From NCBI RefSeq assembly GCF_011250635.1, contig NZ_JAANNP010000001.1, forward strand, positions 590,933-654,932: a stretch of DNA of 64,000 bases, written 5' to 3'. The notes beneath the pieces were generated by a model. It did no database searches, had not been told where the DNA came from, and saw nothing but the letters and a program-made list of their open reading frames with translations. Positions 5,322 to 24,150 of this stretch are shown piece after piece. Each line of letters begins with the position of its first letter. Positions within the stretch are counted from its first letter, which is position 1. Both the position numbers and the translations under genes were made by a program. Origin of the DNA: Motilibacter deserti. GTDB lineage: Bacteria > Actinomycetota > Actinomycetes > Motilibacterales > Motilibacteraceae.

Positions 5322-5487
5322 AAAGAAGTGTCGGCAAGAGGGTGAGCCTGGGGCGGGTGCGGGTCGGGGCGGCTCGGTACGGCTCGGTGCGAGGCGGCGA
5401 GGCGGCAGCTCCGAGGTGCTCGGTACGGCACAGTCCGACGTGCGCGGTCCGGCGAGGTCCGAGGTGGCACGGCCCAGGCTTCGCAGT

Positions 5488-5545
5488 GATCACGGGCTTT
5501 GGCTGCGACATGCCGGCGTGTCTCGAGCCGAGTCCCCTGCTCGAG
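5488..5545. repeat. Palindromic intergenic repeat, copy A (degenerate)
   Basis: Starts TGATCACGGGCTTTGGCT, continues CGACATGCCGGCGTGTC, and ends with GAGCC-GAGTCCC pairing imperfectly back to the left arm. It resembles copies at 5628-5690 and 7113-7161 in arm sequence (GATCA-CGGG-CTTGGC) and in the CGACACCGGCG-like centre. Confidence 0.5.
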
Positions 5546-5627: not shown

Positions 5628-5690
5628 CGTTGATCAGGGGACTTGGCTCAACGACACCGGCGCGTCGTCGGCCAAGTCCCGTGATCAACG
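5628..5690. repeat. Palindromic intergenic repeat, copy B (strongest)
   Basis: The left arm CGTTGATCA-g-GGGACTTGGC (5628-5647) pairs with the right arm GCCAAGTCCC-g-TGATCAACG (5671-5690); an inner ACGAC/GTCGT stem extends it. The centre reads CGACACCGGCGCG. It is the best-preserved of three related elements in this island. Confidence 0.75.
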
Positions 5691-20042: not shown

Positions 20043-21413
20043 TCAGCGCCCGTCGGCCCTCAGCAGCGCCCGGGCCTGGGCGACGGTCACGATGCTCCCG
20101 GTCACCAGCACGCCGGCCCCGCCGAGCTCGCCCTGGTCCTCGGCGAGCGCCACGGCGGTGTCCAGCGCGCTGTCGAGCCGGGGCGCGACCTCGACCCGGT
20201 CGGCGCCGAAGACCTCGACGGCCAACCGGGCCAGCTCGTCGACGGGCATCGCCCGCGGCGTACGGGCCTCGGTGACCACGACCTCCGCGAGCACCGGCTC
20301 GAACGCCTCGAGAATGCCGCGTACGTCCTTGTCGGCCATCGCGGCGACGACCCCGACCAGGTGGGTGAAGGAGAACGCGTCGGGGATCGCGGCCGCGGTG
20401 GCCAGCGCGCCGGCGGGGTTGTGCGCCGCGTCGACGAGGATCGTCGGAGAGCGGCGCACGACCTCGAGCCGTCCGGGGGACCGCACGCCGGCGAAGGCCG
20501 AGCGCACGACGTCGATGTCGACGGTGTCGGCTCCCCCGCCGAAGAACGCCTCGACGGCGGCCAGCGCGACCACGGCGTTCTGCGCCTGGTGCGCGCCGAA
20601 CAGCGGCAGGAAGACGTCCTCGTAGTCGCCCCCGAGCCCGCGCAGGGAGATCAGCTGCCCGCCCACGGCCTGCGTGCGCGACAGCACCCCGAACTCGAGG
20701 CCCTCGCGCGCGACGGTGGCGCCGGCCTCGGTCGCGCGGCGCAGCAGCACCTCGGCGACCTCGACCTCCTGCTGGGCGAGGACGGCGACCGCCCCGGGCT
20801 TGATGATGCCGCTCTTCTCCGCGGCGATCTCGGGCGCGGTCGAGCCGAGGAAGCGCTCGTGGTCGACGGCGACCGGCGTGACGACGGAGACCTGCCCGTC
20901 CGCCACGTTCGTCGCGTCCCACTCCCCGCCCATGCCGACCTCGACGACCGCGACGTCCACCGGGGCGTCGGCGAAGGCGGCGTACGCCATGGCGACGAGC
21001 ACCTCGAAGAACGACAGCGTCGGCCCGCCGGACTCCTTGCTCCGCGCGTCGACGAGGTCGAGGTAGGGCGCGATGTCCTCGTAGGTCGACACGAAGCGCT
21101 CTTCGTCGATCGGCTTGCCGTCGAACGAGATGCGCTCGCGGACGCTGTGCAGGTGGGGGCTGGTGAACCGGCCCGTCCGCATCCCGAAGCCGGCGAACAG
21201 CGCCTCGACCATCCGCGCGGTCGAGGTCTTGCCGTTGGTGCCGGTGACGTGCACGACGGGGTACGCCCGCTGCGGGTCGCCGAGCAGCTCGACCACCGCG
21301 CGGATGCGGTCCAGCGACGGGACGAGGTCGTGCTCCGGCGTCCGCGCCAGGATCGCCGCCTCGACCTCGCGCATGCGGGCGGCGAGCGCCTCCCGGGCCT
21401 CACTGCTGGTCAC
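20043..21413 (-). CDS. folC: Bifunctional folylpolyglutamate synthase/dihydrofolate synthase
   Basis: A 456-residue Mur-ligase-family enzyme. The P-loop is VVHVTGTNGKTSTARMVEAL, followed by TSPHLHSVRERISFDG (folate binding), VEVGMGGEWDATNV and VAVDHERFLG. The C-terminal domain contains RLEVVRRSPTILVDAAHNPAGA, the conserved family motif. It adds glutamate to dihydropteroate and folates. The GTG start (21413) has a GGGGAGAGG stretch upstream. It normally follows valS closely and precedes DUF4233; here the downstream link is broken by the efflux operon. Confidence 0.95.
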   Translation of the reverse strand: MTSSEAREALAARMREVEAAILARTPEHDLVPSLDRIRAVVELLGDPQRAYPVVHVTGTNGKTSTARMVEALFAGFGMRTGRFTSPHLHSVRERISFDGKPIDEERFVSTYEDIAPYLDLVDARSKESGGPTLSFFEVLVAMAYAAFADAPVDVAVVEVGMGGEWDATNVADGQVSVVTPVAVDHERFLGSTAPEIAAEKSGIIKPGAVAVLAQQEVEVAEVLLRRATEAGATVAREGLEFGVLSRTQAVGGQLISLRGLGGDYEDVFLPLFGAHQAQNAVVALAAVEAFFGGGADTVDIDVVRSAFAGVRSPGRLEVVRRSPTILVDAAHNPAGALATAAAIPDAFSFTHLVGVVAAMADKDVRGILEAFEPVLAEVVVTEARTPRAMPVDELARLAVEVFGADRVEVAPRLDSALDTAVALAEDQGELGGAGVLVTGSIVTVAQARALLRADGR

Positions 21414-21439
21414 GGTGGACCGCCTCTCCCCTACCTCAA

Positions 21440-21517
21440 CCGCTGATCATGCGATGTTGGCGAGTTGTCCACAGGCCGCCCGCTGTGGACAACTCGCCAC
21501 ATGTGCATGATCAGCGG
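21440..21517. repeat. Large hairpin repeat with two DnaA-box-like motifs
   Basis: Outer arms CCGCTGATCATGC (21440-21452) and GCATGATCAGCGG (21505-21517) pair perfectly. After a 5-nt internal loop the inner arms, TGGCGAGTTGTCCACAG and its complement, pair for about 17 bp. Each inner arm contains TTGTCCACA (21465-21473 on plus, 21484-21492 on minus), the consensus DnaA box of actinobacteria. It fills the folC-valS gap. It may act as a dispersed palindromic element, a DnaA-titration site or a transcription attenuator. Confidence 0.8.
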
Positions 21518-21528
21518 GGGGGTGGGGG

Positions 21529-24150
21529 TCAGGCCGCGGGCAGCGTCGCCAGCTGGGCCTCGATGCGCTCGATGTCCGCCTCCGCCGACGCGAGCTGGGC
21601 CTTGACCTTCTCGACCACGGGCGGCGGGGCCTTGCCGAGGAACGCCTCGTTGCCCAGCTTGCCCAGCGCCTTGGACCGCTCGGTCTCGGCGGCGGCCAGG
21701 TCCTTCTCCAGCCGCGCGCGCTCCTTGGCGAAGTCGACCGAGCCGCGCAGGTCGAGCTCGACGACGACCCCGCCGATCGGCAGCGACGCGCTCGTGTCGA
21801 ACTCCTCCCCCGCGGCGGCGAGCCGCGTCAGCGAGCGCACCGCCTCCTCGTGCGCCGCGAGGGCGCCCTCGGAGAGCCCGGCGAGCCGCGCCGGGACCCG
21901 CTGGCCCGGCTTGAGCCCCTGGTCGCTGCGGAAGCGCCGGACCTCGGTGACCAGCCGCTGCAGCTCGGCGACCTCCGCCTCCGCGGTGGGGTCGCTCCAG
22001 CGCGGCTCCGCCTCCGGCCAGTCGGCGACCACGATCGACTCGCCACCGGTCAGCGCGGTCCAGAGCGCCTCCGTCACGAACGGCACCACGGGGTGGAGCA
22101 GCCGGAGCAGCCGGTCGAGGACGTGGCCGAGGACCAGCCGGGTGACCTCGGCCTCGCGCCCGCCGTGGGCCAGCGGCACCTTGGCCAGCTCGACGTACCA
22201 GTCGCAGAACTCGTCCCACGCGAAGTGGTAGAGCGCGTCGACGGCCTTGGCGAACTGGTAGTCCTCGTAGTAGCCGTCGACCTCGGCGATCGTCGCGTGC
22301 AGCCGGGACAGGATCCACCGGTCGGCGGCCGACAGCTCCTCGGCCGGCGGCAGCTCCCCGACGCGCGCGCCGTTGCGCAGCGCGAACCCGCCGGTGACCT
22401 GCCAGAGCTTGGTGCAGAAGTTGCGCGAGCCCTGGACCCACTCCTCGCCGATCGGCACGTCGGTGCCGGGGTTGGCCCCGCGGGCCAGGGTGAAGCGCAG
22501 CGCGTCCGAGCCGTACGCGTCCATCCACTCGAGCGGGTCGACGGCGTTGCCGAACGACTTGCTCATCTTCTTGCCGAACTTGTCGCGCACCATCCCGTGC
22601 AGGGCCACGGTCTTGAACGGCGCCTCGCCGTCCATCGCGTAGAGCCCGAACATCATCATCCGGACGACCCAGAAGAAGAGGATGTCGTAGCCGGTGACGA
22701 GGACCGAGTTCGGATAGAACTTCTCCAGCGCCGGGGTCTTGTCCGGCCAGCCGAGGGTCGAGAACGGCCAGAGCCCGCTGGAGAACCACGTGTCGAGGAC
22801 GTCCGGGTCCTGCGTCCAGCCGTCGCCGGGCCGCTCCTCGTCGGGGCCGACGCAGCGCACCTCGCCGGCCGGGCCGTACCAGACCGGGATGCGGTGCCCC
22901 CACCACAGCTGACGGCTGATGCACCAGTCGTGCATGTTGTCGACCCAGCCGAAGTAGCGGGACTCCAGCTCCTTGGGGTGGATCTGGACGCGGCCGTCGC
23001 GGACCGCGTCACCGGCCGCCTTCGCCAGCGGGGCGACGTTCACGAACCACTGCAGCGACAGCCGGGGCTCGACCGTGGTGCCACAGCGCGAGCAGTGGCC
23101 GACGGCGTGGACGTAGGGCCGCTTCTCGGCGACGATGCGCCCCTCGGCGCGCAGTGCCGCGACGACGGCCGGGCGCGCCTCGTAGCGGTCCATGCCCTCG
23201 AACGGCCCGTGGACCGTCACCCGCGCGCTCTCGTCCATCATCGTGAGGTTGGGCAGCCCGTGACGCTGGCCGATCTCGAAGTCGTTGGGGTCGTGGGCCG
23301 GCGTCACCTTGACCGCGCCGGTGCCGAAGGCCGGGTCGACGTGCTCGTCGGCCACGACGGGGATGCGCCGGTCGGTCAGCGGCAGCGTAACCGTCTTGCC
23401 GATGAGGTGCCGGTAGCGCTCGTCGTCCGGGTGCACCGCGACGGCCGTGTCGCCGAGCATCGTCTCCGCGCGCGTGGTGGCGACCACGATCGACTCGTCC
23501 CCGTCGCCGTAGCGGATCGAGACGAGCTCTCCGTCGTCGTCGGTGTGCTCGACCTCGATGTCGGAGAGCGCGGTGCGGCAGCGCGGGCACCAGTTGATGA
23601 TCCGCTCGGCGCGGTAGATCAGCCCGTCGTCGTAGAGCCGCTTGAAGTGCGTCTGCACGGCCTTGGACAGGCCCTCGTCCATCGTGAAGCGCTCGCGCGA
23701 CCAGTCGACCCCGTCGCCCAGGCGGCGCATCTGGCCGAGGATCTTGCCGCCGGACTCGGCCTTCCACTGCCAGACCCGCTCGACGAACGCCTCGCGGCCG
23801 AGGTCGTGGCGCGACAGCCCCTGCTTGGCCAGCTCACGCTCGACGACGTTCTGCGTGGCGATGCCGGCGTGGTCCATGCCGGGCTGCCAGAGGGCCTCGT
23901 AGCCCTGCATCCGGCGCCGGCGGACGAGCGCGTCGATGAGAGTGTGCTCGAACGCGTGCCCGAGGTGCAGGCTGCCGGTGACGTTCGGCGGCGGGATGAC
24001 GATGCAGTAGGGCGGCTTCTCGCTCGACGGGTCGGCCACGAAGTAGCCGCGCTCCACCCAGCGCTCGTAGAGGACGCCCTCGACGTCGGCGGGGACGTAC
24101 TGCGAGGGGAGCTCGGGCTGCTCGGCGGGCCGGGAGTCGATCGACGTCAC
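21529..24150 (-). CDS. valS: Valyl-tRNA synthetase
   Basis: A full-length, 873-residue class I synthetase. The HIGH signature is GSLHLGHAF (about residue 60), the KMSKS loop is [12 protein letters not shown], and an editing domain lies between ([17 protein letters not shown], with zinc-type cysteines in [12 protein letters not shown] and [10 protein letters not shown]). The C-terminus is a coiled coil ([21 protein letters not shown]) that grips the tRNA. It charges tRNA-Val and hydrolyses mischarged Thr. The start is GTG 24150. Confidence 0.97.

Follow-up and report, generated by a model that had tools for sequence, protein, structure and literature searches.

Our results demonstrate that the palindrome between valS and folC of Motilibacter deserti is one copy of an intergenic repeat that is dispersed through the genome. 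The reading that we favor, with a probability of roughly 55%, is that of a REP/BIME-like repeat that provides hairpins at transcript ends and for which DnaA binding is incidental. REP-like repeats are an already known kind of element, and the unusual points of this one are a DnaA-box word inside the arm, a loop that is not conserved, and the lack of a Y1 transposase.

In the window (the whole stretch of 64,000 nucleotides that was analyzed), a scan for inverted repeats with arms of at least 16 nt gave 37 of them, and the hairpin between valS and folC is the longest among the 25 listed. Its arms are 35 nt each, 86% complementary, and separated by 8 nt (Table 1). It lies 11 nt past the stop codon of valS and 26 nt ahead of the start of folC, both genes being on the minus strand. 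The exact DnaA-box word TTGTCCACA occurs only twice in the 64 kb, once in each arm, and TGATCA is found in the hairpin at 21444 and 21508. The RNA fold of 21430 to 21530 reaches -78.1 kcal/mol (z -10.6; none of 200 shuffles was as good), and the DNA folds of 21440 to 21517 have z values of -10.6 and -10.5 on the two strands. Coordinates, folds, and NCBIfam matches thus agree with the original prediction of a hairpin at the folC/valS junction with a DnaA-box word on each arm and TGATCA near its ends. Neither arm of the window copy, taken singly, folds better than shuffled sequence (z 0.43 and 0.82), and no T-run terminator was found at this copy when 21300 to 21700 was scanned, a result that would still be compatible with a tail-less terminator. 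Membership in a known RNA family was rejected for 21300 to 21650, where nothing exceeded an Rfam gathering cutoff and the seven matches to microRNA models were all below threshold.

TABLE 1 Features of the palindrome copy in the window and of the genes on either side
Feature	Position	Strand	Evidence
Left arm of palindrome (one repeat unit)	21440..21474	+	Inverted-repeat scan, arm alignment
Loop, sequence differing between copies	21475..21482	.	Inverted-repeat scan, 25-copy comparison
Right arm of palindrome (one repeat unit, inverted)	21483..21517	-	Inverted-repeat scan, arm alignment
GATCATGC block, left arm; common to sister-genus intergenic units	21445..21452	+	Alignment
GATCATGC block, right arm; common to sister-genus intergenic units	21505..21512	-	Alignment
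TGGCGAGTT, best conserved block of the arm within the host genome	21458..21466	+	Alignment
TGGCGAGTT block, right arm	21491..21499	-	Alignment
TTGTCCACA DnaA-box word, left arm	21465..21473	+	Exact word search
TTGTCCACA DnaA-box word, right arm	21484..21492	-	Exact word search
valS stop codon (TGA, then C-rich) up to palindrome, short	21518..21531	-	Sequence
valS	21529-24150	-	NCBIfam NF004349 above cutoff
folC	20043-21413	-	TIGR01499 above cutoff

A BLASTN search of the genome of M. deserti itself (G000; 4.99 Mb in 269 contigs) with the window element gave copies across many contigs. The family comparison covered five genomes, namely, G000, its congener (G003), a sister genus (G002), a third genus (G004), and G001. 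The arm pattern GATCAWGC-n5-TGGCGAGTTnnCCnCA, searched with up to 3 mismatches, matched 60 times in G000, 22 times in G003, not at all in G001 and G002, and twice in G004, both times at 3 mismatches; the reversed pattern, used as a control, gave no matches. Among 393 genomes sampled from the class, with at most 1 mismatch, the pattern was present in G000 and G003 only and in none of the other 391. The 60 arms of G000 are located at 34 sites: 25 full palindromes, 8 single arms, and 1 tandem pair. L040, whose right arm is degenerate, is included among the single arms and was not part of the alignment of the 25. At one place in both species, two arms flank a gene (L036:2479-3514 in G000 and L188:2477-3348 in G003), the protein of which in L036 has matches to the MTES_1575 nuclease and to AbiEi below the Pfam cutoffs; at L041, an insert is located after the arm. 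A transposase was rejected for the carried gene; we interpret these loci as insertions that entered the loop or landed next to it. A plasmid or phage origin was likewise rejected, with no match at an E value of 0.01 in either collection, from which near records may be absent.

The 25 full copies in G000 provide 50 arms on which conservation can be measured. Each arm consists of a pyrimidine tract, CGCTGATCATGC, five variable bases, and TGGCGAGTTGTCCACAG; when aligned, the arms read GATCA-w-GC, five variable bases, and then TGGCGAGTT, which leads into the DnaA word and overlaps it by two bases. Mean departure from the consensus per site is 0.009 for TGGCGAGTT, 0.040 for GATCAWGC, 0.064 for TTGTCCACA, and 0.316 for the five variable bases. 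TGGCGAGTT is exact in 46 of the 50 arms, and TTGTCCACA in 26, or 30 if TTCTCCACA is included. Both arms carry the exact word in only 6 of 25 copies, and at least one arm does so in 20. Among the 24 departing arms, TTGTCCCCA is found in 7, TTGCCCACA in 5, and TTCTCCACA in 4, along with eight singletons; of the nine positions of the word, three depart in 6 to 10 of the 50 arms and three more in 1 or 2. In the congener, TTGTCCACA is exact in 9 of 22 arms (13 with TTCTCCACA) and GGCGAGTT in 17, a count favored by the selecting pattern, since this names GGCGAGTT and leaves three positions of the word free. The DnaA words are not the best conserved part of the repeat, and the pattern of conservation does not single them out. 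Loop sequences differ between copies, and the gap from word to word is 10 to 11 nt in 19 of 25 copies (3 to 14 nt overall).

Pairing between the arms is only weakly supported beyond what the arm consensus itself gives: 86.1% of cells are paired, against 85.0% with shuffled partners (18 of 500 shuffles reach 86.1%), and 41 of 500 shuffles give a covariation score at least as high as that observed. The two arms of one copy differ by 3.40 mismatches of 29, compared to 4.01 for shuffled partners (P = 0.011). Because arms within a copy resemble each other only a little more than arms taken from different copies do, a recent fold-back origin of each copy was rejected. Matched changes on both arms are seen between some orthologues (L048/L192 and L022/L190); such changes can also arise from template switching in palindromes. 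Sequence is thus retained in both arms more strictly than pairing. This makes each arm look like a unit that some factor reads, or that is copied whole, with the hairpin arising when two such units pair.

The full copies stand mostly at gene 3' ends, just past stop codons. In G000, 12 are convergent, 10 are tandem, 1 is divergent, and 2 are at contig edges, and the background, from gaps of at least 20 bp in a 400-kb sample, is 45 convergent, 104 tandem, and 49 divergent. When the two edge copies are set aside, the probability of at least 12 convergent positions among 23 is 0.002 and that of at most 1 divergent position is 0.012 by count; by base pairs, the values are 0.016 for the convergent excess and 0.009 for the divergent deficit. 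When single arms are counted as well, the 49 places of G000 and G003 together comprise 21 convergent, 21 tandem, 5 divergent, and 2 edge positions. Genes at these loci were called with a simple GC-position script, by which starts and a few contexts (L032 and those scored as in-gene) are rough. Another strong hairpin adjoins 5 of the 25 full copies and 3 of the 12 convergent ones, a rate close to that in control convergent gaps (8 of 26), so there is no clear sign that the repeat takes the place of ordinary terminators.

Comparison with relatives provides some history. valS and folC abut or nearly abut in G001, G002, and G004, and the palindrome lies between them in G000 and in G003, where one of its DnaA words is broken. 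Judged by eye, the counterparts in G003 of the 34 places in G000 include 9 of the same type, 8 with a changed palindrome, 10 without a recognizable copy, and 7 that could not be resolved. The 8 changed palindromes still show recognizable CGCTGATCATGC-type termini at one end or both, often keep TCCACAG, differ in the middle, and lack TGGCGAGTT (by eye). Palindromes containing TCCACAG number 6 in G000, 8 in G003, 1 in G001, 3 in G002, and 0 in G004 (reversed control, 1, 0, 0, 0, and 1, respectively); that they are shared across the family was rejected, as those of G001 and G002 have unrelated flanks (by eye).

The outer part of the arm extends further. In 400-kb samples, TGATCATGC occurs 43 times in G002, 10 times in G004, 6 times in G003, and twice in G000, and the reversed word, which is a lenient control because it contains CTAG, occurs 0 times. 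In G002, 36 of 55 GATCATGC sites come after a pyrimidine tract, with CCCCGTGATCATGCACATCnTGGG as their common consensus. This unit is abundant and intergenic in the 400-kb sample (L292-L311), in single, tandem, and inverted copies; it has GATCATGCAC in common with the repeat, and its consensus is without the DnaA word. By rough gene calls, its places in G002 are 7 convergent, 8 tandem, 6 divergent, 12 in-gene, and 2 edge, and those in G004 are 5 convergent, 5 tandem, and 12 in-gene; the units of G002 are not confined to gene ends. The pattern of the G002 unit had no matches in viral_contigs. In G004, we also observed units containing GATCATGC that are arrayed in tandem with a period of 22 nt (L313 at about 17565 and 18715 and L326 at about 18754). 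From a homology of about 12 to 20 nt in common, without synteny, we suggest that the GATCATGCAC unit is the more ancient component, common to the family, and that the inner arm with the DnaA word belongs to this genus. TTGTCCACA itself occurs twice in the 400-kb sample of G000 and is absent from those of G002 and G004; with just two in the sample of G000, these zeros are weak alone, and it is the word-free consensus of G002 that carries the point.

How far DnaA is involved can be judged from the words themselves. G000 has 40 exact TTGTCCACA words, against 3 for the reversed word, and 31 of the 40 fall inside arms of the repeat, which may well bind DnaA in passing. The perfect DnaA box of high-GC bacteria is TT(G/C)TCCACA, as given in an excerpt of PMC4285127, and TTCTCCACA counts as perfect. 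By this definition, DnaA could still bind to most full copies, and the perfect words of the genome would come mainly from the repeat. In the dnaA neighborhoods, exact TTGTCCACA is found once in G001 and not in G000, G002, G003, or G004 (the dnaA contig of G000 is short), TTGTCCCCA is found downstream of dnaA in G000, G003, G002, and G004, and TTCTCCACA occurs twice in the neighborhood of G002. Opposed words are present in 21 of the 393 class genomes, G000 and G003 among them. A scan of genome_contigs for opposed GAGTTGTCCACA pairs gave 89 stretches (L080-L168), mostly from Amycolatopsis and Pseudonocardia, with a gap of 12 nt in 54 and of 11 to 13 nt in 72 of the 89, many of which are the same locus in related species. 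Alike flanks recur in several species, some just ahead of promoter-like sequence (by eye), and these pairs are possible DnaA-controlled sites. Their inverted words, like those of the repeat, stand about one helical turn apart (11 to 13 nt there and 10 to 11 nt here), but the flanks are unrelated to the repeat. Identity of the repeat with the opposed boxes of Amycolatopsis, Pseudonocardia, and a few Burkholderiaceae was rejected on these flanks (by eye), and GATCAwGC-n5-TGGCGAGTT was absent from the 108 opposed-box loci examined.

Could the copies be dispersed DnaA-binding palindromes, in which two opposed boxes at a spacing of about one helical turn have been selected because they titrate DnaA, reset it, or link gene ends to replication? 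The concentration of exact words in the repeat, the intact arm in 20 of 25 copies, the preferred gap, the perfect TTCTCCACA variant, the occurrence of the second commonest form, TTGTCCCCA (7 of 50 arms), downstream of dnaA, the opposed words at a similar gap elsewhere, and the TCCACAG retained in several changed-middle palindromes of G003 all point this way. We nevertheless consider this unlikely: few copies have both words exact, the word is less conserved than the adjoining TGGCGAGTT, the G002 unit lacks it, the exact word stands near dnaA in one of five genomes, and the copies are sited at gene 3' ends and not at promoters. DnaA binding is likely a side effect rather than a selected purpose. 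Sites with DnaA boxes outside oriC are known from datA, DARS, and the DnaA-box clusters of Streptomyces; the repeat resembles them in its opposed perfect words in intergenic DNA but is dispersed, with the word often broken and the flanking block better conserved. For DnaA titration and coupling of neighboring genes to replication, two functions suggested in the original prediction, the evidence is mixed: the share of words held by the repeat and the TTCTCCACA arms (4 of 24 departing) speak for them, and the 26 exact arms of 50 and the G002 consensus speak against. The third option, a repeat that happens to carry the word, is the best fit to a dispersed family with a better-conserved flank. A family without a conserved TTGTCCACA core, which had been named as evidence against the prediction, is seen in part, in that 26 of 50 arms keep the word and the sister-genus GATCATGCAC unit does not have it. 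The proposal that the arm is a composite AdpA/DnaA switch and the palindromes a dispersed sink at gene ends seems very improbable, even if it would tie DnaA supply to development or growth. In Streptomyces, AdpA has the consensus TGGCSNGWWY, binds oriC, and inhibits DnaA binding (PMC4285127, in excerpt). TGGCGAGTT fits 9 of these 10 positions; the last one, Y, is G in 42 of the 50 arms. Against the switch, the changed palindromes of G003 are without TGGCGAGTT (by eye).

Two further explanations concern the hairpin and its mobility. If the copies were bidirectional transcription terminators that are maintained only for their hairpin structure, this would account for the location at 3' ends, the very stable folds, the slightly greater likeness of arms within a copy, and the concerted two-arm changes between orthologues. 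Intrinsic terminators, tail-less ones included, are stable hairpins after stop codons, often between convergent genes, and the repeat is alike in this; it is unlike them in having a stem of about 35 bp of fixed sequence and no T-run, sometimes with other hairpins alongside. Strong sequence constraint on both arms with weak covariation, the existence of single arms, and the other strong hairpins of the 400-kb samples (scores of at least 14), which mostly have 14- to 21-nt arms of unrelated sequence, make structure alone an improbable account. A MITE or other nonautonomous transposon whose terminal inverted repeats are the arms would explain the dispersed copies, the sites in G003 without one, the presence of the valS-folC copy in the genus and its absence from relatives, and the TGACC that flanks it on both sides. 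We regard such an origin as rather doubtful, since the loop is not conserved among the 25 copies (in the window's second palindrome, part of the loop is kept, as judged by eye), visual inspection of the diverged flanks gives no consistent target duplication, and no candidate transposase was found when Y1_Tnp was sought. The PF01797 profile of the Y1/RAYT transposase matched none of the five family genomes and 5 of 14 control genomes, and a REPIN/RAYT origin was rejected on this basis. Without Y1/RAYT, conserved loops, or, at the window copy, a T-run, the repeat is not a classic REPIN, MITE, or intrinsic terminator.

We return to the REP/BIME-like reading. REP, BIME, and REPIN elements are short, multicopy, intergenic units that are single, tandem, or inverted, lie near gene 3' ends, and are palindromic when paired. 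The repeat is like them in its short intergenic units, their many copies, their three arrangements, and their nearness to gene 3' ends, and unlike them in the absence of Y1/RAYT from all five genomes, in the single arm of the window copy, which has no stem better than shuffled sequence, and in the DnaA word that the arm contains. We infer that conservation acts on the 35-nt arm, mostly present as an inverted pair, that such units spread, and that the DnaA word became part of the arm in this genus. The palindrome at the valS-folC junction would predate the split between the two species of the genus and have been inherited thereafter. Copies may have been tolerated or favored just past stop codons, where they would give the transcript a hairpin with a stem of about 35 bp. 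This hairpin probably serves as a transcript-end structure for pausing, 3'-end protection, or RNase processing and might insulate converging or tandem genes. No account of the valS-folC repeat was found in open-access literature (titles and beginnings of abstracts), and a literature search with the string TGATCATGCA gave no bacterial intergenic repeats among the matches listed.

A dispersed intergenic repeat can thus account for the majority of a genome's perfect DnaA words while the word is not its best conserved part, so that maps of DnaA boxes from word searches alone could mislead here. DnaA binding is nonetheless worth testing because most full copies could bind and because opposed words at a preferred gap exist elsewhere. 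The 20 of 25 full copies with an intact word on one arm or both and the 5 without, at similar gene-end positions, provide a natural contrast for DnaA titration.

TGATCA is also present, as had been noted, in a palindrome near 5.6 kb of the window, but the arm there, of the GATCACGGGACTTGGC type, belongs to a different repeat, and membership in the same family was rejected. This second palindrome family is represented in the window at 5628 to 5690, with a loop of about 23 nt, and by a single arm at about 5487 to 5504. Its loop is partly alike between copies (by eye), and more copies are found in G000 at about 232.3 kb of contig C232 (L263).
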